Part shown: piece by piece, positions 4,839-47,461 of the stretch
Layout of the letters: each line of letters starts with the position of its first letter
Position numbering within the stretch: position 1 is the stretch's first letter
Assembly (NCBI GenBank): GCA_030272155.1
Contig: CP126195.1
Location: 248,001-312,000, forward strand
Source of the DNA: Tetradesmus obliquus
Lineage: Eukaryota > Chlorophyta > Chlorophyceae > Sphaeropleales > Scenedesmaceae
Reading direction: 5' to 3'
DNA length: 64,000 nt
Made by a program: the position numbers and the translations under genes
The notes under the pieces: model-generated
Seen by the model: only the letters and a program-made list of their open reading frames with translations
What the model was told of the DNA's origin: nothing
Databases searched by the model: none

Positions 4839-7800
4839 TCACTCCTTGTTGAGCATGTGTGTGACCTTGTCCACAGTGTACAGCATGGCGCCGTTGGCTG
4901 GCGCTGCGCGGATGAGGCAGGGGCTGAAGCCCTTGTAGAAGCGCTTGATGCCGCCCTCCGCCCACAGCAGCTGCAGGAGCAGGGGTGGGAGGCAAAATAA
5001 AGTTTTATAAGCAGTGTTGACTGCGACAGCAGCAGCACCAGCGTGTGCGTGTGCGCGTGTGTGCATGTGCATGTGCGCGTGTGGGTGTGCATCTGCATGT
5101 GCATCTGCATGTGCATCTGCGTGTGCATCTGCATGTGCATCTGCGTGTGCATCTGCATGTGCATCTGCATGTGCATCTGCGTGTGTATGCATGTGCGTGT
5201 GCATGTGCCTGTGCGTGTACAAGCCCATGTGCAAGTGCGTGTGCATGTGCCTGCAGATCGCCGCCGCCGCACCTTGGCTGCTGTGACCATGTCAGGGAAG
5301 CGCCGCTGCCGCTTGATGATGTTGTCAGTCTGCATGGAGCTCTTGATCACGTCCACAGGGAAGATGGCAAACCAGTAGCCAAACGCCCCCAGCGCTGCTG
5401 ATGACAGCACCGCCCAGGCTGGCAGGTCTGCATTGCTCTGCGGGGTTGGTGGTCATGATGGTGCAGTGGGCATGTGTGCAGAGGGAGCAGGCAAGGCAGT
5501 GAGTAGCGTAGAGTGACGCGTGGGAGGAGGCACATGTTGTGGTGGTGGCCGCAGGAGACGAGCGTAGGGGCCAGGAGCAGCGGTACACATCGCCTGTGCA
5601 GACACATACTGCGGCTGTCAGATGCTGCTGCGCGTCAGCCCAATGACTGCTGCTGTGCACCTCAGAGCCTGCTGCTGCTGCCTGCTGCAACGGCCGCCAG
5701 CCACGCACCTTGCAGCCCAGCTGCTTTGCTGCTGCTCCCTTCAGCACCTCAAATGTGCCCAGGTACACTGCGTTAGCTGGCGTGTTGCGCAGGATGGTTG
5801 CGCCCAGGCCCTGCAGGAGGATAACAACGGCAAGTGCGGCGACAGCAGCAGCAAGAAATATCAGGCACACCGAGGCAGGGCAAGATGCAGTACTCAAAGT
5901 TGCATTTCCACTGCCGAGGCATGCACAACACAACAACGTCCCTTTCACCAGCACAACCCCATCACCACTGCAGCTGCATGCACAGCGCAAGCTGGCTGGC
6001 TGGCCCACGCCTCAATGCATCTCTGCCATGCCTGTTACACCTGCATGTCCGATCAGAGAACACACTCCAGCCCACTTGGAGCGCCAGGAGCCTTTGGGCA
6101 GGGGGGCTTCTGGACCAGCATTGCTTGCAGGTGAACGGTTGTGCATTTACCATGCCTAAAACTGTCATATTACACACCACGCACTCAGCTGCGCCGCGCA
6201 CCTGGAAGGGCCCCTTGAAGCCGTTTTCCCGGATGGTGGCCTGCACGCACGCGCTGACGGTGGTGTAGGGCGGCCGGTAGGCTGGGTCTGCCTTGCTGCG
6301 GATGATCTGCACCTGAATCTGGCTCTTGTAGAAGTCGATGGGGCCCTCTGGAGGTGTTATAACGTTTATGCCATGTTTGGAAGCAGGCAGGGAAGGGGCG
6401 ATGTACAATTGCAGTTGATGAGCTAGCAACCTCAGGGTTGTACAGGGGTGCTCCAGCGCATGCTGCTGCTGTGCATTATCTGCGCGCACGCAATAATGTC
6501 ATGCTGATCCCTGCCTTCACCACCTTTGATAAGCAATGTGCAATGAATCACAATGAGCCACACACCAGGCACACTGCCGCACGCTGTCCCACTGTTGCAC
6601 TCAGGCTCGGAACTAGCGTCATGCTCCCTCCCGCCCCTGCTGTCACTGCTTGCTTCAAACACTGTTCACCGGCATCAGCTGTGCTTTACTACGCGGCAGC
6701 CACACTGCTTCACCCGTGAAGGCTGCAGTGAAGCCGGCTGCTCAACGCATTGTATTCGTATGCATCAGCTGTGCTCCGCTACGCGGCAGCTGCACTGCTT
6801 CAAAATGCCTCACGCTGCTGTGCAATGCTGCCTCACCCGTGAAGGCTGCGATGAAGCCTGTGATGGCCCCGGCTTTGTAGTAGTCCGCGGTGCGCAGCCC
6901 GCGCGTGGTGCCGTCCGCGTTAGTTGCCAGCCAGCGCTTGCTCTCGCCAAACGCGCCAAACAGCGAGGCGCGGAAGAACATTTGACCTGCCAGCGGCGAC
7001 ATGACGCCCTGCAGCAGAGAGACACGAGCCGCAGGAAGCACAGCAGCACGGTGATATAGCTATCACTGACAGGCCTGGCAGTAGCTGCTTTGGCCTTGCG
7101 GCGCTGTTTGTAACTGTGGGGTTTAAATGCTCGGGGCGCACAACGCTTGTCACAAGCTTGTGCCTTCCAAAACAGCCGCTCACAGGTCACATGCAGGTGT
7201 CACATCACACGACCATGCAGCCACCTATGAGGACATGCATACCCGCTGCTCTGCTTCCGGAAACCCTGGAACCACAAGCCCCATCCCTCTGTCACGTGCC
7301 TTGAAACCGAAGCATCTGTGCAATGTCATGCAACCACTCTGGGGTGACGTGCAAGCAACTCTCATGCAGTTTCAGACTAACAGTGCCCTAACTCATCTGC
7401 AGGCGCTGCTGTGCCTGCCGAGCTTGCAGTGCTGCTCACCTTGTACAGGCCAGGCAGGCCCTCCCATTGCACTGTCTTCTTTGCACAGTCCACCACACCA
7501 GCTGCACACATACAACACACGCGACACAGCACGTGGCGATATGTTGAGTAGGTGCACTCACGATCGTGTTTGGTATAAATGCATGTACTTTGCTGGTGCT
7601 TGAATAGGCTCTGGCAGCGCAAGCTGCTGTGTGCAAGCAATGCACATGTGTAAGCACTAGCTCTGCGCTGGCACGCTATGGTACACCAAACAAGTCCCTG
7701 TGCTGCTGCCATGCGCCGCGCATTGACATAGCATTGCACAGATTTGACTATTGCGGCTCGACTGCTGATGCATCCTGCAAGACAAAGGGGTGCCTCACCA

Positions 7801-8260
7801 TAGATGGGCTTCTCCATCGACTGACATTGCAGCCGAACCTTGATTGTGTCAAAAGGATGGCCTACTGCTGTCACTGCTATGCCTCCTGTAGGTGCAAATT
7901 ATAACAACATATGCCGGCAGCGAGCGTTAGTAAGCCTCCCACCCTGTCCCTACCACCAGATGCTGCTTGGCTGGCAGTGCCTAGTCAGTGCTGCTTGCTG
8001 ATGTTGGAGACATGTTTACTCCTGCCTCGATGCAGGCTGGCAGCTGGAAAACAATTGAAAGAATGATAAGATAGCCCCTAGATTAGATGCGAGCTCAGAT
8101 CGCCACTGTCCATGCGAAAACGCACATTGAGCGCGTGGTAGCACTAGCGCTGTCGTATGATACCCAACTACGCACCGCAGGTGCCTGCAAAGACGTCCTT
8201 GACAAGCTTTACAAATCCGGTGGCTGGAGCCTTGGGTTGCTGAGTTATGTCGCTCGCCAT
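4839..8260 (-). CDS. Mitochondrial carrier (SLC25) family protein, BOU/acylcarnitine-carrier-like
   Basis: Eight exons join in phase to a 316-residue protein: 8260-8176, 7885-7799, 7501-7440, 7008-6837, 6347-6202, 5810-5709, 5437-5273 and 4970-4839. Length and threefold structure fit the SLC25 family of inner-membrane exchangers. Repeat 1 has the signature GHPFDTIKVRLQ and repeat 3 has FPVDVIKSSMQ. Repeat 2 is degenerate (EGPIDFYKSQIQ), with Glu-Gly in place of the usual Pro-x-Asp start. The GxxxG-type helices GGIAVTAVGH and GAITGFIAAF are visible. Overall it resembles the carnitine/acylcarnitine and A BOUT DE SOUFFLE subgroup, but substrate cannot be read from this. An in-frame ATG at 8290 would add ten residues (MAQAAAAPPA). 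It is head-to-head with hydroxypyruvate reductase, 325 bp between starts. Introns hold a TGTGCATCTGCATG minisatellite, a dispersed repeat and copies of the exon 4 end. Confidence 0.9.
5043..5240. repeat. Minisatellite of TGTGCATCTGCATG type in the last carrier intron
   Basis: About 200 bp of tandem 12-14-base units built from TGTGCATCTGCA with TGTGCG variants fill most of the intron between exons 7 and 8. Both strands read open as repetitive Met/His/Ala-rich frames, which are artefacts of the repeat. Confidence 0.85.
6077..6175 (+). repeat. Dispersed repeat family, copy B, in carrier intron 5
   Basis: The most complete copy: GGGCAGGGGGGCTTCTGG, CCAGCATTGCTTGCAGG, then GTGCATTTACCATGCCTAAA and ACTGTCAT. 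It lies between exons 5 and 6 of the carrier. Near-identical sequence occurs at 54282-54341 and 55363-55448 in introns of a second minus-strand gene, in the same orientation relative to transcription. Confidence 0.75.
6672..6836 (-). repeat. Tandem copies beside carrier exon 4, including its 3' end
   Basis: A 40-base segment (CATCAGCTGTGCT ... CACTGCTTCA) occurs at 6672 and again at 6762. GCTTCACCCGTGAAGGCTGC at 6707 repeats the junction of exon 4 and its donor, which sits at about 6832-6850. The copies lie downstream of the real donor within the intron. Confidence 0.65.
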
Positions 8261-8585
8261 GGCTGGTGGTGCTGCTGCTGCCTGGGCCATTCCAGTGCCT
8301 GATGACTGCAACAATAGTAACCCGTTTGTTGATGCACTATGCCCTTGTTCCTGTCGGTCCGAGTGCGCGTATGATCATCCTTTTACGGCATTGTAGCTTG
8401 TGTTATGTTACAGCACATGCTTGTGCGTCAGCACACAGCCCCATATGCAGGCCGTTCAACCGCAGACGTTCTCACTTTTGAATGCGAATGCTTTTGGGTG
8501 GTGCCTTGTGCGTATCTTAATCCTCTCACGCGCCCTGCACACAGGCATTGCTCATTGGCATCGTCTATTACTAAACTCAAAGATC
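8261..8585. promoter_or_regulatory. Shared divergent promoter region of carrier and hydroxypyruvate reductase
   Basis: Only 325 bp separate the two start codons, so both promoters and 5' leaders must sit in this stretch. I saw no clear TATA box. The interval is free of the CTG runs that fill neighbouring introns. Confidence 0.55.
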
Positions 8586-10043
8586 ATGGCGCTCCGGAAC
8601 AGTGTAGGGCAGCTTAATCGGCTGCTGGCTCTCCAGGCTCTCGGCAGCAGCAGTGCTCTGTCCAACAGCAGGATGTTCGCGTCAGCATCAGTGAACGGCG
8701 TTCCTGTGGAGGTAAGCTGCGCTGTTATGCTGCAATTAGGTATTTAGCAGTTAACTGGCTGTGTAAGGCGGGCTGATCAGGCTTGGGACGTGCTGGCCTG
8801 CTGGTTTTGCTGGGCTGATCTGCAGTTGTGGTAGGGCTTTGGCTAGACACATCACCCCACCCCCCCAGCATCAGAGCAGCAGGCGCCACATTGACTGTCA
8901 CCACATCAGTAACCACTTGCATCGCTCTGGCCTTCTCACCGTTACAACGCTCACTGTTACAATGGCAATCAGACAGTCACAGTGATTGATGGTTGTGCGA
9001 GTCTGTAAGTCAAGGTTGCACCATGGCCGTGGCTGACCCTATGACAGCAACCACACATGCCCTGTACTGTTGGCACACAGCTTCGGCTGCAACTGCGTTG
9101 TACAGTGTGGTACGCTGCGACCCCGTTCACTCAACTGCTGGCACACCGGCAGGTGCACAACGAGGGCGGCGCCAAGCGCATTTTCTTGTTTCATGTGTGG
9201 TACATTGTGTCTTGACCCATCCTGCTGTGTGTGTGGCGCGCTGCAGGTGCACAACAAGGGCAGCGCACAGCGCGTGAGGTGTGGGTGCAGTGCACTGAAC
9301 TGCTGCAGCTGTGTGGCCTGCAGGTGCACAACGAGGGCGGGTCCAAGCACACAGTTGCTTGTCATTGTGTGGTACACTGCGACTCCACCCATCCCACTGT
9401 GTGCACATGCAATCTAACCCCGCTATCATCTCTTTGCACATGTGCGGTGCGCTGCAGGTGCACAACGAGGGCGGGTCCAAGCGCGTGGTTGTCACCAAGA
9501 ACCTGCCTGGCGAGCGCTGGCTGCAGATCCTCACCGCAGCAGGATGCCGCGTGGAGGTGAGCCACACTGGGTGCTGCCACAGCATTGCTGGGCAGCTACT
9601 ACTGCAGGCAGCCGGCTGGAGCTGTGTGTGCTAGCAGTTGGGGCTGCTGCTGCAGACAGCTGGCTGCCATGCTGCTTGCATTGAGTGGCGCGGACGGCAG
9701 GGATGCTGCCAGAAACGCTGCAACTGGCTGGTACAAGTGCGCTGCGCATTTGGCACGCAAATTGTGCCGTGCACATGCAGCAGCAAGGCTCACCGCGGCA
9801 GCCTGTGTCGCAATCAGTGGACAGCAGTTGGAGCAGCCGGTCTGGCAAGCGCGGCCTGCAGGGTAGCCACACTAGCTACGCTGGATTGCCAACTGTAAAA
9901 CAGCTTCCAATTGACATTTCTGCATCAGATGCATCACATCCGTCAGGCCAGCGTGCTGCGCTGTGGCACTGTCTGCCCCTGGCATGCTGTTCACCACTCA
10001 AGGCAGCATGGACGTGCATGGCTCAAGGCCTCTTGTGGACTGC

Positions 10044-10079
<36 letters not shown>

Positions 10080-13000
10080 CGCAGGTGAGCCAGCACCCCG
10101 ACATCATCCTGGACAACGCCACCATCAAGAAGCTCATCGGGGACAAGTGCGACGGCGTCATCGGCCAGCTCACAGAGGTGAGGATTACGCCTGGCCCGCA
10201 GCACACGTGTGCTGCAACGCGCGCCTCAAGGTCTGTTTGCTTGCGGGCAGCTCACAGAGGTGAGGATTGCGCCTGGCCTGCACTGGGCATGGTGTGATGA
10301 AACACACGCCACTGCGTGACTCACACCGTGCTCAGCTAGGTCCGTTCGCTTGCTTTGCTGCGTGCTGCTCATTGCAGCGGCTGTGCCCCAGCAGCAAGGC
10401 TGCTTGGTGGCGCTGGCTAGCACTCTTCACTGCTTGTTGTGTGCTGCAGCGCGCTGACAGGTTGTCGGGCTCAACACCCCATGTCTGCTGCTGGCTCTAA
10501 CCACAGCTGCGCCTGGGGACAGATGGCTAGCAGCGTTGAAGCTGGCGCAGTCCTTCAGCTGGCAGAGTCTGGCGGTCTTGATGGTAGCCAGCATGCATGA
10601 GCTGCTGGCTGCGGCTGCGTCAGGTCTGGGGCTTCAATGATTTTGACGTTCTCACCTGTGCACTTGGTTTGGTGGCGCCTGAATGGACACACTCGGCTGC
10701 TGGGTGCCGCAGGACTGGGGCGCCGAGCCGTTTGAGGTAGTCAGCGATGCACTTGAATTGCCGGTGCTGAATGTGGTGCTTTATTTGACACACTCTGCTG
10801 CTGGCTGCTGCCGGTGCAGGACTGGGGCTCCGAGGTGTTTGAAGTGCTCAGCGTTGCATGTGATTGGCGGTCCTACCCATCATGCTCTATTGCTGCCACC
10901 GCAGGACTAGGGCTCTGAGCTGTTTCAGGCGCTCAGCTGTGCACTTTGGTTGGTGGTGCTAATTCGTCATATCATACTTACTTACTCATACGCTACTGCT
11001 GGCTGCCGCAGGACTGGGGCTCCGAGCTGTTTGAGGCGCTCAAGGCTGCTGGCGGCACGGCGTACAGCAACTACGCGGTGGGCTACAACAACGTGAAGGT
11101 GCCAGAGGCAACCAAGCGCGGCATCCCTGTCGGCAACACGCCAGGTGCGCGGCTGCCCATGCCCGACTATGCCTGATGTCGACATGCGCTCGCGTTCACA
11201 AGGCAGCGTTGCAGCTGCACTTGCCGTCTCTGGTGGTGTGCGTGTAGCTGGCACGCAGCGCACCGAGTCCAGATTTGCCAGGTCGTCGCTTTATGAGGAA
11301 GACACCCAAGCCATAAGCGGCTAGGTATCAGCTTCCCTGCCACTGCCGGTCAATCTGCAGAGGATGCCACAGCTGTATCCCTGGCTGCGACTCTGTCACC
11401 ACGCCAACCCTGCGCCTCACTGCTGCTGCTGGTGCACTCGGCTGTCTGTCTCTAGTTTGTTCCCTGCCCGCAGGCGTGCTCACAGAGACGACCGCGGAGG
11501 TCACTCACTGTCGCTGCTGCTTTTGGTGCGCCTTGATCTGATGCCTGGGGTTTGTCCTGCTCGCAGGCGTGCTCACGGAGACAACCGCAGAGATCGCAGC
11601 CGCGCTGACGCTGGCTGCTGCGCGGCGTGTGGTGGAGGCTGACAGCTTCATGCGCAACGGGCACTACAAGGGCTGGCTGCCCACACTCTTCATCGGCAGC
11701 CTGCTGCAGAACAAGACGGTGAGGACGCAGCCCTCCTGTTGATTACGCATGGCCAGCCTGCTGCTCATGCACCAGGTGCTGAGGCATGTGACACCGCATG
11801 CCTGATCGTGTCCTGGTTGTATGCAGCAGCACACGCCAGCAAGCCATCTGCAGGGCGCTTCCACCACTGCTGACTTGCCCGCTGCAACTCCGCGCAGGCG
11901 GGCACAAGGCGGATCGGCCCCGCGTATGCACACATGGTGGTGCCCTGATGTATTGCAGCGCCAGCTCACCAGCGGCTGCGACACGACCCTCTGCAGTACA
12001 ATGCTCAACCAGTTATGCAACTGCAATGCTGCATACGTCTCCACACGCGCAGGTGGGCATCGTGGGTGCGGGGCGTATCGGCGCGGCGTACGCGCGCATG
12101 ATGGTTGAGGGCCACAAGATGAACCTGGTCTACTACGACCCCTACCCCAACACGCGCCTGGAGGAATACATCAAGAAGTGAGCGGCTGTTGGCGACGTGT
12201 TATTCTTATTGGATGTGTTGTTGTAGGTTCATTGTTTGTATCGTTCCATTGTCATCGCGTGCCTGGAGGATCACGCGTCAACAGTGAACGCCCCTACTTC
12301 TGCTTTTATGCGTCAAACTATGAATGCATCCCGCAATTCTGCTGTGTATCTACTTATAACTGTGCGTGTGCTGTTTGATACGTAAGTGCTGCTACATCAG
12401 GATGCAAGATTCCTGCTGCAGCCCCTGAAAACCAGATCCCTGCGCTGTTCATGTGCACCTTGCTGTGCAGCGGCACACACCAGCGACTTCACTGCTGCCT
12501 GCTTGCCTTGGCTGCTCTAATCGTTTCCAGGTACTCGGAGCTGCTGCCCCACACCATCCCTTCGCATACAATGTGCAGCATTTTACTGCTCACTGACACC
12601 TGCCTGCCCTTGTCCCTTCCAGGTACTCTGAGCTGCTGCGCCACACCGGCATTGCCGTCCATCCACAGATCACATGTCGCACTTTGCCCTTGACTCACAC
12701 CTGCTTGCCGTTGACCCACACCTGCAGGTACTCTGAGCTGCTGCGCCACAGCGGCGAGGCGCCGGTGGCTGTGCGGCGCTGCGAGACTGTGGAGGAGGTG
12801 CTGCGTGAGGCCGACGTGAGTGGGGGGCCATGACTGATGGCGCCGACCAACAGTTGGCCATCTGCATTGTGTGCTCCTGAATCTGCTAGCTGTTGGAGGA
12901 GGTGCTGCACGAGGCGGTGTTTGGGCAGTCTGCGTTGTCAGAAGGCTATGGTTGGAGACCCACGGCTGCATGCACTGACAGCCACTACTGCTGCTGCTGC

Positions 13001-13459
13001 TGCTGCCCCTCAGGTGGTGAGCCTGCACTGCAACCTGGACGACAACACGCGCCACCTCATCAACAAGGAGCGCCTGGCACTGATGAAGAAGGATGCAGTG
13101 CTGGTCAACGCAGCACGTGGGCCCTGCATTGACGAGGCTGCGCTGGTGAAGCACATGCAGGACAACCCCGACTTCAGGGCAGGTGGGGGGGGGGGGGCTG
13201 TTTAGGGCTGCACGGCCCACTGTGATGTTGTGACGCTGTCATACTGATGGAAGTGTCGACACCTATAGTTGTTGGGGGTTGGCTGGCATGAGACAGGCTC
13301 ACGCCTGCGAGTAGCTCAGATGCTTGGGCCATGCGGTCGCTCCTCGATGCATTGCAAGCTGCTTGGCGCAGTTTCATGAGCAGGGATGGTGAGCAAGACC
13401 TGAATTGAACCAAACTTGCACGCAGAGCTCTGCAACAGCGCATGACCGCCGTTTTGCCC

Positions 13460-13506
<47 letters not shown>

Positions 13507-13578
13507 AGGCCTGGACGTGTTCGAGGACGAGCCCACCATGGCGCCCGGGCTGTCGCACACATGCATTTACACTGCTGC

Positions 13579-13618
<40 letters not shown>

Positions 13619-13923
13619 GCTGCTGCTGCTGCTGCTGCTGCAGGCCTGGACGTGTTCGAGGACGAGCCCGCCATGGCGCCCGGCTGTCGCACACATGTAT
13701 TTACACTGCTGCCGCTGCTGCTGCTGCTGCCGCTGCTGCTGCTGCTGCTGCAGGCCTGGACGTGTTCGAGGACGAGCCCGCCATGGCGCCCGGGCTGTCG
13801 CACACCATGCATTTACACTGCTGCTGCTGCTGCCGCTGCTGCTGCTGCTGCAGGCCTGGACGTGTTCGAGGACGAGCCCGCCATGGCGCCCGGGCTGGCG
13901 CACACATGCATTTATACTGCTGC

Positions 13924-13975
<52 letters not shown>

Positions 13976-14045
13976 GTCCCCAGGCCTGGACGTGTTTGAG
14001 GACGAGCCCGCAATGAAGTCCGGGCTGGCGCACACATGCATTTAC

Positions 14046-14122
<77 letters not shown>

Positions 14123-14536
14123 AGGCCTGGACGTGTTTGAGGACGAGCCCGCCATGGCACCTGGGCTGGCGCAGCTGCCCAACGCAGTCATCGTGCCCCA
14201 CATCGCCTCCGCATCCATGTGGACCCGCAGCGGCATGGTGAGCGGCAGACTGCATACACAATGTCACATATGCTTGCATGCGTGCAGCAGGATGTCAGCT
14301 GCGTACATGCAAATGTACATGAATGCAGGCATGATGTATGATCTTTGTGCAGTTCAATTTGTGCGACTTGACGTGATCTGGTGATGCAAAGTATTTTGCA
14401 ATAGCTCACAATGGGCCTCTGTGCCTGCCAGGCAGCAGTGCAAGCAACACCAGCTGTATGCACAGTCGCAGGGCACGGCTGTTCGGGCTTAATTGACTTC
14501 CCAGAACATGCCTGCTGAAATAACGTTTCCTCTCTG

Positions 14537-14578
<42 letters not shown>

Positions 14579-14739
14579 AGGCCACGCTGGCAGCCGCCAA
14601 TGTGGCTGCCTGTGTGAACGGGATGCCGGCCTTCAACCAGCTGGACATCACCGCCTACCTGGAGGCGCCCATCGCCAGCCTGCCACCAGCAGCACCCAGC
14701 ATCGTGAACGCCAAGGACATCAACATGAAGGTGCTGTGA
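8586..14739 (+). CDS. HPR1: NADH-dependent hydroxypyruvate reductase (D-2-hydroxyacid dehydrogenase)
   Basis: Ten exons join in phase to 418 residues: 8586-8711, 9458-9556, 10085-10177, 11012-11144, 11567-11718, 12053-12177, 12728-12815, 13014-13182, 14125-14237 and 14581-14739. The enzyme reduces hydroxypyruvate to glycerate in photorespiration. The NAD-binding fold shows VGIVGAGRIGAAYARMM. The catalytic Arg, Glu and His of the family are in NAARGPCIDE, LDVFEDEP and VPHIASAS. The N-terminus (MALRNSVGQLNRLLALQALG) is basic and amphipathic, suggesting mitochondrial import; the Chlamydomonas enzyme is reported as mitochondrial, and the C-terminus (DINMKVL) lacks a standard peroxisomal signal. 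Length matches plant and algal HPR1. Introns carry at least sixteen partial copies of neighbouring exon edges, described separately. The end of exon 9 is unambiguous because only the last of six copies continues into PGLAQLPNAV. Confidence 0.95.
9149..9350 (+). repeat. Three echoes of the HPR1 exon 2 start in intron 1
   Basis: AG followed by GTGCACAACGAGGGCGG (or close variants) appears at 9153, 9247 and 9324 before the real exon at 9458. Each copy holds the 3' splice site and about 25-30 nt of exon, then diverges. Confidence 0.85.
10248..10280 (+). repeat. Echo of the HPR1 exon 3 end and donor
   Basis: CAGCTCACAGAGGTGAGGAT and the following GCGCCTGGCC repeat the exon 3/intron 3 junction found at 10166-10198, about 80 bp downstream. 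Confidence 0.8.
10709..10945 (+). repeat. Three echoes of the HPR1 exon 4 start in intron 3
   Basis: CAGGACTGGGGCTCCGAG-like segments start at 10713, 10820 and 10904, before the true exon at 11012. Each extends about 40 nt into exon-like sequence (GAGCTGTTTGAGGCGCTCA) and then decays. Spacing is about 85-110 bp. Confidence 0.85.
11468..11508 (+). repeat. Echo of the HPR1 exon 5 start
   Basis: GCAGGCGTGCTCACAGAGAC at 11470 repeats the junction at 11563-11582, 93 bp upstream of the real exon. Confidence 0.8.
12523..12650 (+). repeat. Two echoes of the HPR1 exon 7 start
   Basis: CAGGTACTCTGAGCTGCTGC-type segments lie at 12531 and 12623, before the real exon at 12728. Each retains the acceptor and about 25 nt of exon. 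Confidence 0.85.
12891..12930 (+). repeat. Echo of the HPR1 exon 7 end
   Basis: TGTTGGAGGAGGTGCTGCAC and the bases that follow repeat the last 25-30 nt of exon 7 (12788-12815), in the intron downstream of its donor. Confidence 0.7.
13460..14124 (+). repeat. Five-copy array of (CTG)n plus the HPR1 exon 9 start
   Basis: Units of about 100-140 bp each consist of a (CTG)n run ending in CAG, then GCCTGGACGTGTTCGAGGAC and the next 20-25 nt of exon, then TGCATTTACACTGC leading into the next CTG run. Exon-like parts begin at 13509, 13644, 13754, 13854 and 13984; the functional sixth copy begins at 14125. Every copy keeps the reading frame through the catalytic VFEDEP motif. Confidence 0.95.
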
Positions 14740-16709: not shown

Positions 16710-16750
<41 letters not shown>

Positions 16751-19700
16751 TTTGAACGTGTACCTGCCCTTGCCTGCCGACTGCCGACAGCGCTGGTGCA
16801 TGCCGCCCCTCTCGCCTCCACACATACCTCAATGTAGTCCGTAATAATAACATTGCAGCGCACCAGCTCCTGAGCGCCCTCAATGCCCTGCATCATGCCT
16901 GTTTTGCTACCAATACACCACACGTACCTTGTGCGTCGCAGATCCAGGTTGGCCTGGGCCTGGGCAACCCCCAGGACAGGTTCTTCACAGGCATCCAGCC
17001 CTTCTGCACCTTCCACAGAACTGAGGTGCCGCTGTACCTGGCACTGCCACACCTGACGGCTGCCGGTGGCGCGCTGACAGCTGCACACCTGTCACACAGG
17101 CAAGTGACATGTATAGCCTGTTTCTGCTGCACTTCCTGCGTCGTTTTACAGACACCTGCGGGTGGCTTTTGTGATGCTGATTTGCCTGTGCGCGCTTGTT
17201 GAAACCTGTTGTTTTCCCTCTGTCGTGCAGGCGGGGCCGCAAGCCCAGCGTGTGGCTGGGCTGCTGCATGTTTGTGGCTGGCAAGGTGAGCCGCAAGTTT
17301 TCTTGCCCAGACAGCATCAAATGCAACGTCATGCCGATTGCTTGGCTGGCTGGCTGGCTGGCTTGCAGTGGCATTGCTGCATGTTTGTAGCTGGCAAGCA
17401 GCGCAGCGCTGTTTGTGAAGGGGGCAAAACCCACTGGCTGGTTTGCTTGCAGCTGCAGAACAGGCGGCTGCACTGGTGTCTGATGTGGTTTGCATTACAG
17501 TCATCAATGTGCTGCCTGATTGTTTAGCGGCCGCTCAGCTTGCGCATGCATGCATGCGTCTTACTATATTGTCAGGGCCGCAGCTTGTGCCTGCAGCTAC
17601 CCTTCCAGCTTGGCACAGAGCTCCGCGCATTGCTGTGTGGCGGCTGTAGTTCAATGACGAGCAGTGGCTGCATTAGCCTGCCGCCTGACTCCTCATGCGG
17701 TGCTGCCCTGTGCTGTGCCTGCAGCTGCTGCTGGTGTTTGCAGCTGGCGTAGCTCAGGTGTGGGCGGCGCGGGCCTGCACAGGCTTTGCAGTCGGCCTGC
17801 TGCACCAGGTGCGGGGCCACTGCCAGGCGGCAACAGAGCAGGGACCATGAGGGTGATGCCCCATGCAGCGCACAGGATGCGCAGCAGTGACACGCGTGCA
17901 AACAAGACTTGGCTGCTGCAAACCTAAAGCAGCTCCTGTTGCGGCTGTTGTGGCATGTGTTCGGATCAGATGAACCAATGCAATTGTATTTCCAGCCACA
18001 GCTTACTTACTCATACTGGCCACAGCTCATTACTTATGTGGGAGGGTGTGCTCACTTCAACTTGGAAGAGGCGTGGAAATGGCGCCGTCGGCGCGCTTAC
18101 CGGATGACTTCCGCCGCTGCTCTGAATCTCTTTGTCTACCTGTCTGGCCTGGCTTCCTGCACATATTGCACATGCTTACCCCAGCTTGCTTGAAGGTGCG
18201 CAGCCTCATATTCGCAGTTCGTCTTTATACATGCTGTGCCACAGGCGCCCCTGCTGGAGGTGCTTGAGCTGGTGCCGTTTGACAAGCGGGGCGCACTGGC
18301 GTGCTGCCAGAACCTGGGCCGCGCGCTGGGCTTTGCGAGTGCCGCGCTGCTCAGCTACGGGCTGGCCCTGGAGGAGAGCAGCTGGCAGTGGCGGCTGGTT
18401 CCGATTTTTGGCATTTGGTGAGCAGCAGCAGCAGCAGCAGCAACTGCGGCTGCTTTCACGGTACTTGTGCAGTAGTCGCAGTCACGTTGTTGTTTTGTCA
18501 CTCCCCTCAAGTGCATTATGCAAGGAACGTGTGCCTTCCATGCTGTCGTGTCTGATACCTGGCCACACAGTTGTGCTGAATTCCTGCTGTGCTCGCACCT
18601 TACCTACTGCTGTTGCCAATCCCTGCTGCGCCCCTGCAGGCCTGCGCTGCTGACGGTGCTGCTGCTGCTGTGGCTGCCAGAGACGCCCAGCAGCCTGCTG
18701 CAGCGCGGAAAGCTGGCTGAGGCGCGAATTGCGCTGCAGCGGCTGCGCGGCATGCTGCACAACACTGAGCAGGAGTATGGCGAGATCCTGAAGGCCTCAC
18801 GTCTGTTCTCAACAGTAAGTAAGCAGTGCTGTGACGGCAGGCACGTGAAGAATGTTGCATGGCGCTGAAACAGCCCCCGACCATGCATAGCAGGTGTGCG
18901 TACATGCTTGAGCAACCCTTAAAGCAGCAGCAGCAGCAGCAGCAGCAGCAATTGCTTCCGCTTGCAATGCCAGCTGACAACCATCATCACCACCTGTGCA
19001 GCAAGTGACATGCACCCCCAGCGCACACACGCATCCTGGACCCAGTTGTCCTGCTGCCTGCCTTGCACCTCCTCCCTTTCCCCGCAGTCTCGCACCCAGC
19101 TGCAGCCAGCCGCAGGAGGCATTTCCACCTACACTGCAACCCCGCCACAGCGCTCACACACCCTGCCATGCCCCGCCCTGCCCTGCCCTCCCCTGCCCCC
19201 TCCTGCAGTCTCGCACCCAGCTTCAAGCCTTGAAGCAGCAGCGTGAGGCGCAGCTGGCCCTGGCTGCGGGCCTGGGCCTGGTCACTGTGGCCAGCGCGAC
19301 TGGCGGCGCGCTGCTGACGGCTGCGGGCTTCCCTGTGTTCTATGCACTGGGCTATGGCCGGCTGAAGGGCTACACGATGAGCATGGTGATGATCGCCTGC
19401 GGCTGCGTGCTGGGTGAGTGGGAAATTGGACAGTCTGCTAAGCAGATAGATTCCTCTTAATGACATGTCACTCCACGCCATCATTGACGAAGCTTATCGA
19501 TCGCCTGCGGCTGCGTGCTGGGTGAGTGCGGCACGCTGAGCAGATCCTCGTCACAGCACGCTGATCAGATTGGTGCATTGCACGCTGAGCAGATTGGTGC
19601 ATTGCACGCTGAGCAGATTGGTGCATTGCACGCTGTGCAGATTCTTTGAGTGCAGCACGCTGAGCAGACTGGCGCATTGCACGCTGCGCAGATTGGTGCA

Positions 19701-31206: not shown

Positions 31207-34200
31207 GCAACTTCACACTGAGATAACGCCCTCACCTTGAAGTAGTCGAACAGCTCGCTGGGCTGCCCTTCGCTGTTGCTGTCCATGACCTCCATCAGCT
31301 CCCTGCTCAGCTTCATGGGCGCAGCCTCAAAGGCCAGCCAGCCGCCCCCAGGGGCGTTGCTCAGCAGGAAGCCAAAGTCGATGTGCACCAGCCGCCCGCT
31401 GCTGTCCATCATGATGTTGCCGTTGTGGCGGTCCTTGACCTGATGACGCGACGTTCGACACGGTGCAACATCAGCAGCAGCAGCAGCAGCAGCAGCAAAA
31501 GCAGTGAGTGAAGCCAAATACGATGTGCACTAGCCGCCCGCTGCTGCCCTTGATGATGTTGCTGTGGTGGTGGGCCTTGACCTGCAGGACAGGAGTAGAG
31601 CGGCGCCGCGAAGAAGCGCAGCAAAAACTCAGCGGCAGTAGAAGCACAGCCCGTGCTTCTTCATTACAAGCAGCATACGGCAGCAGCTTCCTTGCATGCC
31701 ATCCATGCCAGGCGTTTATTGCATGGACCCTAGGCCACCAAGACCTGCTGGAACACCATGCATTCAACTGCTGGCCAGCATACTCTGGGCCGCGCTGGTG
31801 CTGTTTGTCATACACCCCACCTGCAGCAGGTAGGTGACGAGGCTGTATGCAGCCAGGCTCTCCACAAAGCGCCGCTGCGCAGCCAGGCACTCAGGGCTGC
31901 CCCGCCGCCACTTGGCAAAGAAGTGCTCCGACAAGCTCACACCGCCGCTGCTGCTGCCAGCTGCTGCTGCTGCTGCACCTGCAGCTGGTGATGCGGTCGC
32001 AGCGCTGTCGCTGGCAGCAGAAGCGGCTGCAGCTGCTGCTGCGGCGGTGGCAGCTGCTGCTGCGCTGCGCTGCTTGATGCTGTGCACGCTTGTGGAGTCT
32101 GGGATGAGCTGTATGAGTGCTGTGCCTGCTGAGGTGACCAGCACCTCAAATGGCAGCACCCACAGCGGCAGCCCGGCAGCTGCATGCACACACACCAGGC
32201 AGGCAGAGAAGCAGGTGCAGATGTGAGGTGGCTGCTTATCACAGCCAGGGCACATGTCAATGCACAGGTGCAGGTACAAGGCAGCCTTGTTTCTCGGAGC
32301 CGTCCTGTACATATGCGCTAGTGCAGGCCAGCACTGCCTCACCATCTGGAGCAGATATCCATGAACCATGTCCCGGCTGGTACACTAGTGACTTGCGCGC
32401 GCGTTGGTAAGGGCAATTCATAATGCACACATACTGCTGCTGCACCGCATAGATCCCTGCCCAAGCCAGTATCATCGCCTCTCACCTGCCCAGATGTCTC
32501 CCAGCTCCCGGATCAGCTGCAGCGCCAGCAGCTCCTGCCTGCAGTCGTCACCGCTCTTCACGATGACGCCAGCCAGGCCCCAGCCGGGGCGGCAGCCAAA
32601 GGGCGAGGACGCACGCACACGCGCGCAGCGCGCCTCCCAGCTGCAGACACATGCCAGCAGCAGCAGCAGCAGCAGCAGATGCAGCAGCAGCAGATGCAGC
32701 AGCAGACACGTCACAGGTGAGGTAGCTTGCACATGCAAGCTCGTAACACAAGCTGGCAACAGATGATGCTTGGGAGCGTGGGTTTTGGGGCAGCTGAAGG
32801 TAGAGAGGTCCGACTGTGCTGTGCGCGCCAAGAACATGGCAACTCAAAACCCGGGTTATGAGCAACCAACGGGCCTGGTCACTCTCTGTCAGCTGCTGCT
32901 GCTGCACGCTCTTTAAAACATGCCCAAGAGTTGCGGCTCCTCTCACCTCTCGCCATACACAGCTTCTGCTTGCTGCGCCAGCTGCTCAGCAGCAGCCTCT
33001 GCTGACTCAGCAGCCTGCTGCTGCTGCTCCTGAGTGACCAGCTGGTCCACATGTGCTGCTGCTGCTGCTGCTGCTGCTGGCTGCTGCTTCCGCAGGAAGC
33101 CCCACCAGCCGCCACTGGCCTTCTGCTGCTGCTGCTGCTGTTTGCGCTGTCGCTGCTTTGGCGATGCTGCTGCAGCGCCTGTGCTGGCCACATCCTGCCA
33201 GCCGTCGTGACCTGGCATGACACGCACAGAGCCGCCGCCATCGCTGCTGCTGCTGGTCCTGCTGCTGCGGCTCGAGGTGCCTGCACTCAGCTCTGGCGCT
33301 GACACCCCATTGCTGCTTTGAGCCGGCATCACGCCATGACTTTCACCAGATGCAGCTGCCAGAGCTTCATGGCCACTACCAGCAGTAGCAGGAGCTGAAG
33401 CTGCACTCTGCTGCTCTTCTGTTTCGGGGGCAGCAGCAGCAGCAGCAGCGCCTGCAGCAGCACCTGCCACCTCCGCTTCATCTACAGTCTTGAGGTGGCT
33501 GCTGCTGGCGGATGCGCCGGTGACGTATGGGATGCATTCCGCGTCTCCGTCCATGCTGCTGCTGCTACTGCTGCTGAGCTCGCCAGGCAGCTGCAGCGGC
33601 GGGCCGATCTCAGTCGGTGGCGGGATGGCTGCCTTGCCCAGCTTGCCTGCAGGGCCACATCAGGGCAAAGCGCAGCATTGACCGGAACCATACATAACCA
33701 AATTGCTGAGTACAAAAGCTGATTGCTAGCGCAAGTGCTTACTGTAGTAGGCTTGTCGCTGCCCGCTACAGATAAGTGCTAACTTTTAAGTTACGTGACA
33801 GTGCTGTCGGGCACTATGAGTTGCTCAGTCGCGCAGCCAGCCAGCCGAATGCAGCACCACACTTCCGCCTTACCCGCAATGATGTCGATCGCCTCAAGCG
33901 ATGGCAGCCGCCGGCCCTTGCGGCAATGCAGCGCCAGGTGCTGCACCACAGGCGCAGCAGCCACCACCTCCAGATGCACCTGCAGCAGCTGACCCCGGCC
34001 TGCTGCTGCTGCTGCTGCTGCTGCTGTGCGCTGCCTGCTAGGCCCCGCTGCAGTACTACTAGTAGCAGCAAAGTATCTGCTGGCTGCCCTGCACATGTCT
34101 CCTGAGGATGAGGAGGCGGGCAGCTCACCAAACAGCCAAGGCCCTTCAACAGCATCATCACTATCATTGCTATGATCACTGCCATGTTTATTCACATCCC

Positions 34201-39082: not shown

Positions 39083-39114
<32 letters not shown>

Positions 39115-42061
39115 GCTCTCAGCAGTGTGCTGAGCAGGCCCTGGCATCTGATGCGTTTGGCAACAGCCACGAATATGATGCATGCATCAAACCAGGACAC
39201 TCAAAGCTGCTTGGGGTAGCGCTGCGTCTGTAGCGAGCAGCTGCTGTAGCAAATAGCACATCTGAAGCCGCTGCATCAGGTAGCAGCCGTCCCGAGCCCT
39301 GCAGAGGCATCCGCAGCACGCAACAAACAGTACTGCTTATCAACTATCCTGGGCCTCATCCCGGCCTATGGCTAGCTCGCAGCCGCCCTGCTTTTAACAC
39401 CAGCAGCTCTCCAGCATTACACAGTAGCTTGTCCGCCTCCATGGTTCTGTGTACATCCATCTTGCAGGCCAGTGGTGGCAGGCTAATGCCAGACCAGGCG
39501 CGCGTAGTGGCAGCAGCAGGCGCTTGCACTCTCTACTTGCAACAATGTGGCTCGGTTGTATGACGGAGTGCGCACCTTTATGTTGCAGGCCAGTGGTGGT
39601 CGCCTGATGCCAGACCAGGCACGTGTGGTAGCAATGGGAGGTGGCCCGCAGCTGCCTCCACCGCGGCTTGCAGGAGTCACGGATGCGCCAGCGCCCCACA
39701 TACCCACCTACACGCCGCAGATAACCGGCCTGGCCCCGCAGCCCAGCTCGGGGGGCGGCGTGGGCTATTCACCGCAGCCTACCGGAGGCTACATGCCGCA
39801 GGTGACAACAGCAGCAGCATGCACAGCAGCAGCAAGATCGAGCAGCAGCAGCAGCAGCAGCAGCAGCAGTGTGCAATGTGCAAGGATTGCAGCAGGTGCC
39901 GGCAGCAGGTTGGCAGCAGCAGCTGAAGGACCTGGCTTCAGTACAACGACCTTGCAGCAGCTGAAGGATGCAGCACCCTGTTAGAATAATATTGTGTGGT
40001 GCTCTTGAGTGTATGTCTGCATGCGTTGTGCTTGCAAACGTGCGCGTGCACGTGTGTTACGCCTGCAACTGCATGCACATGCGTCGCATGCAGCCAGACA
40101 TGCACATGCTAGCAATCCCCTCAGGTATGACCCTGCCTGTTACTGTCCCCTTGCTCAACTGCCAGGTCACTGGCGGCTACCCACAGCAGCAGATGACCGG
40201 CGGCATGCGGCCACCAAGCCCCTACGGCACCCCACCCCCAGCAGCAGCAGCAGCAGCAGCAGGCCCGACGGGGCAATACACTCCGCAGGCCACAGGCTAC
40301 CTGCCTGCAGGTGCAGGACCCACAGGCGGCATGGCTGCTGCTGGCGGCACTGGTGCTGGTGTGGCTGCTCTGCCCGGCTTCCCACCTGTTACAGTGGCTG
40401 ACTTGCAGCGCTACCAGGCTACATTTGCAGCAGTTGACACAGACAGGGACGGCTTCGCCAAGGTGCGTGTGAGGTGTGAGCACGGCACGTAGCAGGTTGG
40501 GTTGCATGCTTCTGCATTGCGTCTTGCATCTGCCATGTGCGGCTGCGCGCTGCCTGCAGGGCGCGGAGTGCTTTTCCAAATTCATCAGAATGTGACTTAT
40601 GCCAGGCGTTTTACATCTGCATTGTGCACTGCACCTCAACATGGCGCTGCTCAAGTGTGGCTCAGACCAGGCGCCTTACATCTGCATCTTGCTCTGCTGT
40701 ACACTGCTTTTTATCTGCTGCCCGCAGGGCGGGGAGTGCTTCCCCGTGTTCATCAAGTCAGGGCTTGACAAGGCGCTGCTGAAGCGCATGTGGGACCTGG
40801 TGGCGGGCAATGCGGGCAGCCTGGACGCGCAGCAGTTCCTCAAGTGCATGTACCTCATGGACGGCTGCAGGAGGGGAGCGGCGCTGCCTGCTGCACTGCC
40901 GCCCGGGCCCTGGCCGCAGGTGGGCGCTGCGCTGCGCTGCGTGCTTGTAGTCTGTGCTGGGCATCTGTAGATTGTGCTTGGTGCGGTCTGCTTGCTGTGC
41001 TGGTGGGTGGGACCGGTCTTGCCGCGCTTGGCGTGCCAGCCTGACCAGCAGCATTAAAAAACGCACCAGCTGGCGGTTTATTGTGCATCCTGTGTATCAC
41101 TTTTTTGATGTGTAGTGGCATGCTGTTGCTGCGCAGGCGTCCATGGTCTCGCCAGCAGCAGCAGGCATGACTGGCCCGCCAGGCATGATGCAGCAGCAGC
41201 AGCAGCCACCAGCAGCAGCAGGCCTCACCGGTGCCATGCCAGGCCCTGCAGGCCTGCCGCCAGCGCCGCAGCTCTCAGCAGGTGGTGCCAGGGACAGCAG
41301 CAGCGGCGGCATGGCGCCCCTGCCTGGCACTGCGCCGCTGCGCGCTGAGAGCTGGAGCCTTGAGAACCAGTTTGGGCACAAGGGCGCGGTGAAGAGCATC
41401 AGTGAGGCATATGACCAGACGCTGCCGAAAATCCCCGACCTTCCTGGCAAGGTAAGTCGTGCAGCTGCTGTTGAAAAAAGTTACTATGATCCTTCCGTAT
41501 TGCCTGGCAAGGAAACACGCAGTTGCTGTGGTGCTTTGATATTTCTCGCATCATTTGCTGCGCATGCTGCACCCAGCTCATCTGTTGATTGCTGGCGACA
41601 CTGTGCGAGCAACACAGACTCTGCTGTGGGGCGCAAACTGCGCATTCTTGAGCTGCCGCTCACCTGGCTTTGTCTGCTGTGTCCTGCAATGCCCAGATCA
41701 CCTTCAACCCAGCGGCGCTTGCTGCTGCTGCCGCTGGGCCTTCCTCAGTGCCAGACCTGGACGCCACCATTGCTGAGTGAGCGTTACCCGCCAGCCTCTG
41801 AAGTGCAGCAGGAACAGCTGCATGCGTGCTGCGTGCGTGCCGATGATGAGGTGCTGTGAGGCAGCGTACTGGTCTTCAGGCCCATCCCATGCTGTGATGA
41901 TAGTCAGAAGCAGGCGCAACTGCCATTGTCGCATAATGCTCCTGTGGCTTACTCTGCACACCCGCCACTTTTGCACATGGTCAGATCTCTGCTCTTGGTT
42001 CAAGGTGGCTGGTGCTGTGTGCTTGTTGTCTTGCCTTTGTTGTTTTGCCAACCATCTGGTG

Positions 42062-42110
<49 letters not shown>

Positions 42111-45100
42111 TGTCGCTGCAGCATGCTGGTCCCTGCTGACAAGGCGCGCTGGGAGGCTGAGCGCTCAGAGGCGCTGGAGAAGGAGAAGCAGGAGCGGCAG
42201 GTGGCGGCAGATGCGGCAGCAGCAAAGGTGCGCAGCAGCGGCATTGGCAGCAGCAACGGCAGCGTCAACGGCAGCAGCAGCAGAGGCAGAAGCAGTGTGG
42301 CAGGCAGAATTGACAGAGTTGCAGCCAGCATGGTCCGCCATCTACTGGCGCACGCAAGCTACCTCGCTGCACACGCAGCAGCCAAGCTGTTTGGGCTAGT
42401 GCGCTATACAAGTACAGCACCCTGCTGCATGCTGGCAGAGGCATCCTAACTGCCTGCAACTTCAGCATCTTTCAGCTCCTGCATCCTCTGCTTCCCGCCT
42501 CCCTGCCTGCTGTGCACGGGCTGCAATCGCACAGGAAGGGACGCCAGCATTGCTGCAAGCACGCTACTTCTTGCTGCAGACTGCATGTACAGCATGCCGT
42601 GCTGCTGTGCGGCTGGTACATGCTGTATAAAATAAAACTCATGACACTGCTTGCTCCCCTGCATGTGTCGCGCTTTGACCCCTTGCACCCCCTGTCTCCC
42701 CCAGGCGCGCGTGGAGGCGTTCAATGCTGCGCTGTCTGAGCTGGTCATGTACAGGAGCAGGGTAAACGTGGCGCTGCTGCAGGTGGGCACAGCAGCAGCA
42801 GGCCTGGGCAACAGCGGTTAGATAGGTGCATGCATCAATCAACCCTGCTTGCATTGTGCTGCTGCCAGTTGTGGCAGGTAGACGTCAGCAGGCGCGCGCA
42901 GTTGCACCTACGGCATGAAGGCGCATGAAGGCGGCAAGTGCTATGCTGTTGTGGCAGCCGGGCTGCCTGGGCTCAAGCTTCGCCTATGTTCAGCAGCATA
43001 ACATGCAATCGTCCTACATTCTCTGCCTCCCTTGGCTTCCTTGGCTTTCTGGTTGACTTGCTGCTGCTGCCGCTGCTGGTGCTGGTGCTGCACTTCTACT
43101 GCGCCAGGCGAGCGACAGCGCTGCCCGCTTGGCTGCTGAGGCGGAGGACACTGAGCTGCGCTACAACAAGGCGCGCCTGGGTGAGCGCCGGTTGTTGGTG
43201 CACGGAGCTGTGGAGGCACTCACGGCACGATGCATCCTGAATCTGTTGCGTCAAGCACATGCAAGCGTGCCTGCATCACAATGCATCCAGCAGAAAAACT
43301 ACTAGTATTATGCCATGCCGTTGAATGTCACCTGACTCACCACTGGTGCTGCTGCTGCTGCTCCGCCTTGCAGCCGCGCAGAGCCAGGAGGAGGAGGGCA
43401 AAGAGGCACGCCAGAAGCTGCAGGCGCTGCTGGCGCGCAAGCAGGAGGCGGCCAACAAGCTGGAGCTGCTGCAGCAGGAGATTGCGATGATGGCCAACCT
43501 CAACCCTGCGGAGCTGGCTGCGCTCGAGAAGGAGGTCGGGGCGCTGGTGGCGGCCATGGCTGCTGCTGAGGCGCAAAAGGCGGCCATGGAGATGCAGGTG
43601 CGGTCTGGTGGAGTTGCAAAAGTAGTGAAAGTATGAAAACGTACATTTGCATGTTCGTTGGAACATTATTGATGGTGCCGGGGTGCTGCTGACTGTAGGT
43701 GCCGGTTGGCCGCCTGTGTGCGTAGCTGGACACGTGGCACACAGCGCTGCGGCAGCATAGCTGCAGAAGCATTTGCTGTTTCGCCCTACTCTAGTGCGCA
43801 CCGCTGCATGACGCTTCCCTCCTGCTGCTGCAGCTGGACAGCGGCAAGAAGCGGAAGGGCCTGCTCAGCTGACCTGCTGTGTGCTTGCTGCTGTCGTGTT
43901 TCTTTTTGCTACTGTTTGCAGCTGGACAGCGGCAAGATCAGAAACGCCTGCTGAGCTGAACTGCTGCGCACCTGCTGCTGCCGTGTTTTGTGTTTGATTG
44001 CTTGCAGCTGGACAGCGGCAAGAAGCAGAAGGGCCTGCTGGGGGAGCGCATCGCCGACCTGGAGCTGGCCGCGACTGCTGCAAACCTGCTGGCTGATGTG
44101 ATTAAGTTATGTTGTGCCTGTCTGCTTGTTGCCTGCAGCTGGACAGCGGCAAGAAGCAGAAGGGCCTGCTGGGCGAGCGCATCGCCGACCTGGAGCTGGC
44201 CGCAGCAGCGGGCGAGGGCGACATACGGAGAGCACGCGCAGAGCTGGCAGAGCTGCAGGTGGGGTGGGGGAGGGGCTGAGGGAATGTCTGCTGAGCTGTC
44301 GAGGTGTCATTTGTGTGTGACACATCAAGCGTACATGTGTGCAGGTTCTTGGGGCTGTCAGAAGGTCAGGGAACACCTGCAAGCTGGCCGCTGTTGCCAG
44401 TAGATGCATCACAGAACCTCTCCTCCAACTGTAAAGCAGCAAAGCAGCAATTTTGGCTTGCGCACGCCTCAAGTCAAGCAGCTGCACATAGTATCAAATT
44501 CGACCCCCTTTTTTGCCTATATTGCCTCCAAGCTTGCATCACCTGCCTGCAGGCCAAGCTGAGCGCAGCGCAGGCCTCAGCGCAGGGCGGCCCCGACCTG
44601 GGCGAGGTGGGCCCGCTGCTGGGCAAATTTGGGAGCAGACACCACGCGCTACTCACTCGGTCCTCATCCTTCCTCTGCAATCCCGCTGCATGTCTGCAGG
44701 CCAAGCTGAGTGCAGCGCAGGCCTCAGCGCAGGGCGGCCCCGACCTGGGCGAGGTGGGCCAGCTGCTGGGCATGTTTCCGGAGCACCAACCACATGCTAA
44801 TCACTGAATATTCTTCCTTCCTCTGCAATCCGGCTGCATCTCTGCAGGCCAAGCTATCAGCAGCGCAGGCCTCAGTGCAAGGCGGCCCTGATCTGGGCGA
44901 GGTGGGCCCGCTGCTGGGCAAGGCTGCCAGCGCGTACCGGCGGCTGTACAGCAGCGCTGCCGCTGCGGGGCTGGAGGTGCCGTATGAGGCGAACCTGAAC
45001 AACGTGGGCAGCCTGGTGTGGCTGGAGCAGCTCATGGTGAGTGTGACTGGAAGCAGGGTGTTGGAGGGCAGGCAGGTTGGTGTTCTTGTGCACGTAAAAT

Positions 45101-46819: not shown

Positions 46820-46824
46820 TGTAA
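46820..46824 (+). terminator. TGTAA polyadenylation signal for the EH-domain gene
   Basis: TGTAA about 320 nt past the stop codon, in the first part of the gene-free stretch. Confidence 0.4.
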
Positions 46825-47359
46825 ATGAAGCTCGAGGCCGATGCGAACACCAGCAGCTGTTGGTCAGGGATCCAACCATTATCTACACTAAGCAGGGTCA
46901 TTCTGTTGCTGCTTGTTTAAACCTCAACTTGGGGTACAACACACACGTGGGGTACAACGTACTAACTGGCAGTCAGGTTCGCCTGGTTGCTGTGTATGGC
47001 CAGCCAGTAAGGTTTTGCTCCCCCTGGTAACATAAAGAACCCTCTAGATGACAGCCCATGCCAGCCCACCAACATATAACAACTAACCAGCAAACCCACA
47101 ATCACCAGCAACAAGGGTAGCGTGAAAAGGTTAGAAGCGCACCACTTTGGCGACGCGCTGCATGCTTAGACCGTCTATTTGTGACAAATTTGGAACAGCA
47201 AAACTTGGGCCATCTATAGAGGTGCACCATTCATCAGCTTGGCGAACTCCGCCAAGCTGATGAATGGTGCACCTGTATAGTATGCATGATAACAGTCTGG
47301 CCCTATATGACATCTGGCCCTCGCGTGCATCATGCAGGGCAGAAGCCGGTGAGCTGCGT
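46825..47359. other. Convergent intergenic region with a long hairpin
   Basis: No coding exon supported. Lies between the 3' ends of the EH-domain and papain-LRR genes, and includes the inverted repeat at 47214-47280. Confidence 0.5.
47214..47280. repeat. Near-perfect inverted repeat, 25-bp stem and 5-nt loop
   Basis: AGGTGCACCATTCATCAGCT plus TGGCG at 47220-47244 pairs perfectly with 47250-47274 around the loop AACTC. Outside it CTATAG and GTATAG extend the pairing to 31 bp with one mismatch. It lies between two converging genes. Confidence 0.95.
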
Positions 47360-47461
47360 CCCGCTCAGCACATGCCCTGCCACATCATCATCATGTTACC
47401 CGCTCAGCACATGCCCTGCCACATCATCATCATGTTACCCGCTCAGCACATGCCCTGCCAC
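47360..47461 (-). repeat. 39-base tandem repeat across the stop codon of the papain-LRR gene
   Basis: Units starting with CCCGCTCAGCACATGCCCTG lie at 47360 and 47399, with a partial third at 47438-47461. The third is coding (GHVLSG). The stop codon at 47437-47435 belongs to the second unit, and the remainder lies in the 3' UTR. Confidence 0.9.

Follow-up and report, generated by a model that had tools for sequence, protein, structure and literature searches.

Partial copies of exon edges, lying in direct orientation in the adjoining intron, are real and common in the green alga Tetradesmus obliquus. The stretch of DNA in which they were noticed, here called the window, comprises 64,000 nucleotides of contig CP126195.1 (assembly GCA_030272155.1, positions 248,001 to 312,000 of the forward strand), and it was compared with other parts of the same genome, which amounts to 104.66 Mb in 17 contigs. 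Acceptor-type copies repeat the start of an exon upstream of the real acceptor, and donor-type copies repeat the end of an exon downstream of the real donor. Both are likely to be left over from tandem duplications of an ordinary kind, short in unit, that straddled the borders between coding and non-coding sequence, mostly splice junctions. A first-pass annotation of the window had proposed, beyond this, a distinct mode of intron growth centred on splice junctions. The junction-spanning tandem duplication, the lengthening of introns and the decoy splice sites in that interpretation are supported, but the distinct mode is not.

Pfam names five genes of the window, encoding a mitochondrial carrier, HPR1, a sugar transporter, a PI 3/4-kinase and an EH protein. 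All five carry copies; a sixth gene to which the first-pass annotation ascribed them, a ‘glycosyltransferase’, gave no Pfam match above the cut-off in the pieces tried. The exons of HPR1 and EH were positioned via database proteins (tblastn), and those of the carrier, the PI kinase and the sugar transporter are gene-finder exons from which short or doubtful ones were removed by hand. At 20 of the 90 junctions of these genes, 32 partial copies were counted, which bears out the earlier figure of roughly thirty in direct orientation and the description of two forms, one on the acceptor and one on the donor side. The chance rate, at which the same exon edges reached the threshold against introns of other genes, was 5/450. 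Copies are found at 6/9 acceptors and 2/9 donors of HPR1, 3/13 and 2/13 of EH, 0/5 and 1/5 of the carrier, 2/10 and 0/10 of the PI kinase and 1/8 and 3/8 of the sugar transporter. Most (27/32) start at exon base 0 and so abut the junction, and five do not; some are weak, such as 42232-42268, which lies in a 12-nt repeat, and 9837-9861, which is barely at the threshold. Comparison of the window with itself gave 49 direct local repeats and three inverted ones (within 3 kb).

The same excess of flanking-exon matches is seen beyond the window. The DNA compared was 324 kb in total: the window and 13 blocks of 20 kb from the rest of the genome, ten of them taken at 1.0 Mb of ten contigs and three, added later, chosen by hand among 50 places that a script had drawn randomly. 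A gene finder trained on these 324 kb themselves predicted 288 exons and 228 introns, and 190 acceptors and 177 donors were kept from the 228 of each (exon coding score above 10, length at least 50 nt). It should be noted that a gene model is a prediction of this self-trained finder unless it is that of HPR1, EH, COX15 or one gene for a chlorophyll a-b binding protein. A direct-orientation copy lies within 400 nt of 34/190 acceptors and 33/177 donors; this wide count disregards labels, so that some coding exon repeats may enter it. Reversed edges gave one match at acceptors and none at donors, and foreign edges gave none at either. Within predicted introns, copies were found at 18/190 acceptors and 19/177 donors, with 0-1 for reversed or foreign edges, and searches on the wrong side gave 0/129 for exon ends against the upstream intron and 3/120 for exon starts against the downstream intron. 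A 260-kb set (the first ten blocks and 60 kb of the window) holds 91 clusters of direct repeats and six of inverted repeats, as against none in shuffled sequence. Duplication events were recognised at 12/102 junctions of the window and 30/354 elsewhere, spread over 10 of the 14 blocks and 20 of the 60 predicted genes; extrapolation from 30 events in 260 kb would put the genome-wide number on the order of 12,000. Copies occur at two acceptors and one donor of the chlorophyll a-b binding gene. In the block L002/L003 a very young array (19320-19859) consists of 118-nt units that are 97-98% identical, each with an exon end followed by GTGAGT. In another mitochondrial carrier gene (G000 C16:3700227-3700780), three successive matches fall on nearly the same stretch of the model (8-33, 7-31 and 7-59), which are probably serial acceptor copies seen at the protein level.

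The anatomy of the 42 events in the 324-kb set fits tandem duplication. The copies lie 82-476 nt from their source (median 132), and no more than 223 nt away in 38 of the events. The coverage profiles of acceptors and donors are mirror images of each other: they peak on the first 30 bases of the exon, and the copies sit 80-140 nt into the intron. Alignment of the intron sequence flanking a copy with that flanking its parent junction gave a match (p ≤ 0.05) for 17 of the 33 junctions compared, where about 1.7 would be expected, and the junctions that retain such homology have the lower exon divergence. The intron half is clearly duplicated in the 147-nt units of EH and in HPR1. Direct local copies, intron flanks shared at about half of the junctions tested and the like behaviour of acceptors and donors all argue for repeated tandem duplication spanning the junctions, as had been claimed. 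Most copies also keep the dinucleotide that would make them decoy splice sites, a further part of the earlier claim that stands: GT is intact in 23 of 26 donor copies and AG in 24 of 28 acceptor copies.

A unit, typically of 82-223 bp, that is duplicated over an acceptor would place the intron tail and the exon head twice in succession; if the outermost acceptor were then spliced, the message would be unchanged and the extra unit would join the intron. Duplication over a donor would be the mirror image. Duplications within exons would change the protein and would mostly be purged, and purely intronic ones would be tolerated but should fade fast, since both copies drift. In a straddling duplication, coding constraint would hold the exon half of one copy, so that the other would remain recognisable, and serial duplication would give arrays, for example the five copies of one exon start in HPR1. 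The copies with their orientation and spacing, the homology of the intron half at about half of the junctions tested and three database proteins that skip the copies are direct observations; neutrality, the mutational source and the way in which the outer site comes to be chosen are inferred.

If tandem duplication occurs anywhere and is kept where it is harmless, copies are predicted at borders between coding and non-coding sequence and also inside introns. Both are found. A copy of the end of the coding sequence follows 4/39 predicted stop codons, and a copy was found at 5/30 predicted start codons, although predicted starts are unreliable and one of them (L002 19250) is probably an acceptor. 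Mid-intron tests gave 18/232 and mid-exon tests 6/159, with reversed or foreign edges at 0-2 in each set. The mid-intron matches came from 14/174 tests in introns without a junction copy and 4/58 tests in introns with one. The first-pass annotation had placed the copies always next to their parent junction; the duplications within introns contradict this. The right end of the range given for the pattern (47360-47461) is a perfect 39-bp minisatellite of 2.6 copies outside any predicted gene.

A process that acts on the junction itself, in which exon edge and splice consensus are preferentially copied with a fresh spacer and independently of random tandem duplication, is nevertheless worth weighing, and several observations that weigh against simple tandem duplication speak for it. 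Junctions carry copies more often than mid-intron positions do (67/367 against 18/232, p=0.0003), and repeats cover 16-18% of exon edges against 5.6% of unlabelled sequence. No flanking-intron homology is recognisable at 16 of the 33 junctions. At L008 15006/15119 the exon part is 96% identical and yet the flanks are not recognisably homologous; at L014 19246/19356 the exon is copied to its very end at 98% with flank similarity that is at most faint (p=0.21, and 0.04 in a second test), and L002 19096/19241 (96%) is similar by eye. Intron homology of 20 nt or less is retained in 29/42 events, above all six indel settings of a neutral simulation (uniform tandem duplication followed by neutral decay), which gave 11-39%. 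Against this, homology of the intron flanks does exist in about half of the events, namely those with the lower divergence. Between stop codons and junctions no difference in rate could be detected (p=0.27), with the proviso that the 39 stops are few and predicted, some of them in doubtful gene models, that two of the four matches lie in one block (L010) and that one ends a low-complexity protein (L008). Intron pairs are moreover harder to detect than junction copies and were sought over a shorter region (median 136 nt, compared with up to 400 nt at junctions). Part of the junction excess arises because a junction copy faces a conserved exon whereas both sides of an intron pair drift, and because such a pair must fit within the intron. 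Large indels and the turnover of CTG tracts in introns may account for lost intron homology; the first LHC acceptor unit is by eye a tandem unit with one gap of about 17 nt, which the alignment tests did not call. Since copies are found at stop codons and in mid-intron as well, a junction-centred mode is not needed, and we regard it as improbable. Were it true, introns would lengthen as decoy junctions were added to them, and the spliceosome would routinely have to separate identical tandem sites by position alone. A stronger argument for targeting was at one stage drawn from about five hand-counted intron-only clusters as against 42 junction events; it was given up because it depended on gene-finder labels. 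The hand-counted ratio of intron-only to junction events lay under the simulated 0.34-0.85, and the mid-intron tests were relied on instead. Two further reservations apply to tandem duplication as the explanation, namely that most of the gene models were predicted within this analysis, and that the events come from one genome and are unpolarised.

The copies could alternatively be functional and kept by selection, whether they act as splice sites of the decoy or poison type or provide exons with alternative starts. In favour of this are the retention of most splice dinucleotides and a slightly high synonymous share. Mismatches between copy and exon comprise 107 synonymous and 84 non-synonymous differences, a synonymous share of 0.56 (0.47-0.64) where 0.39-0.55 is expected for a neutral copy facing a conserved exon; the share thus reaches or exceeds the upper limit expected under neutrality (0.63 for acceptors), a point that also counts against neutral relics. 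An earlier case for selected copies, made from a third-position excess (45, 31, 116), was discarded when bootstrapping over events put it at the edge of a two-branch neutral expectation. Divergence between copies in ten arrays is 84/878 in the exon-derived part and 102/1107 in the intron-derived part, but this equality is carried by one array (L014 6466). Without it drift is 60/618 and 95/712, respectively, and the intron part drifts more in 7/10 arrays, which fits function better than neutrality and is not significant (p=0.19). Gaps point the same way, with 34 in the intron part and four in the exon part, a difference to be read in the knowledge that the finder itself bars gaps in the exon part; by requiring an ungapped match to the exon it favours that part in general. 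On the other side, the dinucleotides are retained at about the level that 9% drift per site would leave, the reading frame is not kept (the spacing is divisible by three in 10/42), five of the non-synonymous differences are stops, and four peptides that would result from read-through were found in none of the best 120 matching proteins of each listing. Selected function is therefore rather remote as an explanation, and tandem duplication followed by neutral drift is preferred.

There is evidence from three genes that the copies are skipped. The HPR1 protein P0001 (418 aa) is 99% identical to the model, and six tested junction peptides are each present in it once. It is apparently derived from transcripts, because its contigs are at most 2.3 kb in length and the gene spans 6.2 kb. 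Database proteins for EH and COX15 likewise cross the tested junctions without copies, these being records and perhaps not transcripts; for EH, OEZ86_012415 [Tetradesmus obliquus] is 89% identical over 90% of the model, and the COX15 gene-finder model is, from end to end, in 99% agreement with a public T. obliquus UniRef protein that is itself longer. No extra exon appears at the tested outer junctions in the HPR1, EH and COX15 proteins. The predicted protein of the chlorophyll a-b binding gene aligns in one stretch with solved relatives despite its three copies. As to the introns, the 39 that bear copies have a median length of 407 nt, as against 230 nt for the 189 that do not (p=4e-5). The excess is 4.6 of 68 kb, and the claim that the copies explain why the introns are long is thus true of about 7% of predicted intron sequence.

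Two trivial or better-known sources can be considered. Assembly stutter or the mixing of haplotypes might be suspected, as long-read assemblies can stutter in repeats and some arrays, such as the one at L002 19320-19859, are nearly uniform. However, the nearest copies are less than 97% identical in 39/42 events, spacers and lengths vary, and the events are dispersed over most blocks; an artefact of this kind is very unlikely. Introners supply intron sequence in eukaryotes, algae among them, and in other algae they create introns that have repeats at their ends; insertion of such mobile elements next to exon edges could in principle resemble what is seen here. One unit searched against the whole genome was found in a single place, however, and the spacers compared with the 324 kb show local copies, mostly weak matches elsewhere and no clear family; the strongest non-local match, 67 nt at 82%, comes from a CTG-rich spacer. 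Insertion is the explanation to which we give the least credence.

HPR1, the most fully documented case, occupies 8586..14739 on the plus strand, as placed by tblastn of P0001, the gene finder and Pfam (2-Hacid_dh_C). Its ten exons are 8586-8711, 9458-9556, 10085-10177, 11012-11144, 11567-11718, 12053-12177, 12728-12815, 13014-13182, 14125-14237 and 14581-14739. Three acceptor-type copies precede the exon start at 9458 (9153-9179, 9247-9276, 9324-9357) and three that at 11012 (10713-10750, 10820-10857, 10905-10935), two of each three being found by tblastn also. Self-comparison and the junction count both give a copy of the exon start at 11567 (11474..11521) and two of that at 12728 (12531-12553, 12623-12650), and tblastn and the junction count give a copy of bases 19-53 from the exon start at 12053 (11908..11941). 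On the donor side there is a copy at 12883..12915 that lacks the last 4 nt of the exon ending at 12815, a weak match (9837..9861, score 15) that lacks the last 30 nt of the exon ending at 9556, and, from self-BLAST and outside the 32, a donor-type copy at 10244..10282 of 10162-10200, which includes the exon end at 10177. The array of five acceptor-type copies of exon 14125-14237, 48-49 nt each, begins at 13509, 13644, 13754, 13854 and 13984 (span 13509..14032). Four of these stand directly after (CTG)n and CAG; the fifth is preceded by a CTG tract with CCCCAG at its end. Over 13461-14122 the copies alternate with (CTG)n tracts that differ in length; similar tracts precede other acceptors, which they may destabilise.

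The EH gene, on the plus strand, has a donor-type copy of the exon end at 39512 (39589..39633), at 40560..40587 a weak copy of the acceptor type (score 16) belonging to the exon start at 40728, and a doubtful donor-side match, the one inside the 12-nt repeat (42232..42268), to the exon end at 42227. Three acceptor-type copies belong to the exon start at 44139 (43834-43865, 43922-43980, 44008-44072) and two to that at 44848 (44553-44626, 44700-44772), the full units of the latter being about 147 nt. The sugar transporter, also on the plus strand, has an 80-nt acceptor-type copy of the exon start at 20266 (20114..20193), donor-type copies of the exon ends at 17285 (17375..17398) and 19413 (19499..19521), and a donor-side copy at 21128..21161 that lacks the last 10 nt of the exon ending at 21001. 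Of the genes on the minus strand, the mitochondrial carrier has a donor-type copy at 6714..6735 of the exon end at 6837, and the PI 3/4-kinase has acceptor-type copies at 30857..30886 (exon start 30785) and, of 72 nt, at 31510..31581 (exon start 31439).

Other features of the window were seen in passing. One exon matches the D1 protease in PDB entry 1fc6, which is from Scenedesmus obliquus, without a difference over 61 residues. A dispersed repeat, unlike the local exon copies, occurs at 6085-6174, 54284-54341 and 55358-55447 (and 3295-3358), 83-93% identical and 1-52 kb apart. At 47214-47280 there is a 67-nt near-perfect palindrome with a 92.5% match to its own reverse complement, and at 47814-48487, on the minus strand, an array with a period of about 145 nt lies in an open frame whose translation resembles leucine-rich repeats; it looks like a true in-frame protein repeat. 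Among the blocks, L032/L033 contains a tandem satellite of more than 10 kb (9364-20000) with a period near 180 nt, and L020/L021 contains long tandem arrays of about 275 and 350-370 nt (1-3959, 4086-6039 and 15230-17183), for the last two of which the alignment figures are mirrored.

Should the rest of the genome match the sampled rate, T. obliquus would offer thousands of natural experiments with near-identical tandem splice sites. Where this could be checked, splicing uses the outer site alone, as it does past five copies of one HPR1 acceptor. Choice of splice site by position, by exon definition or by proximity to the branch point would be directly testable with RNA sequencing. Such duplication would also be an ordinary route by which introns lengthen. 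A practical warning follows for annotation: gene finders call echo exons, as happened in this analysis.

A genome-wide pattern of junction copies was not found in the literature searched, which was limited to freely readable papers and is weak evidence of absence. In the main text, as far as accessible, of two genome papers on Sphaeropleales and S. obliquus (PMC12571836, PMC7590803) there is no word beginning with ‘intron’. The nearest anatomy is that of potato RdRp (Ma, Lan and Niu 2016, PMC4974935), in which the 3' part of an intron and the 5' part of the next exon were duplicated in tandem. As here, the duplication is direct and takes in the splice junction; the potato unit carries branch site, pyrimidine tract and acceptor, and in T. 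obliquus the intron side is recognisably duplicated at about half of the junctions tested. The potato account, however, concerns a single case, in which activation of a cryptic donor led to a new intron, whereas in T. obliquus splicing passes over the copy and the existing intron becomes longer, at many junctions and at acceptors and donors alike. Tandem duplication is in any case an accepted source of introns (PMC3443670; Drosophila cases in PMC2891723). In what these texts describe, intron gain of the Rogers type shares with our events a short direct duplication beside splice signals and the hiding of the extra sequence by splicing, and differs in that an exonic AGGT is duplicated to give a new intron. 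The copied segments examined here contain an existing acceptor or donor, and no new intron was observed. Duplications of segments within genes are reported to be commonly observed (Gao and Lynch 2009, as cited in PMC3443670 and PMC4974935); unlike internal gene duplication as those passages present it, ours comprises serial partial copies at nearly one-fifth of junctions. Introners form dispersed families, in contrast to the copies described here, which are local and come from their own exon. What is unusual in T. obliquus is the density of the copies, their serial arrays and their outcome, which is a longer intron instead of a new one.

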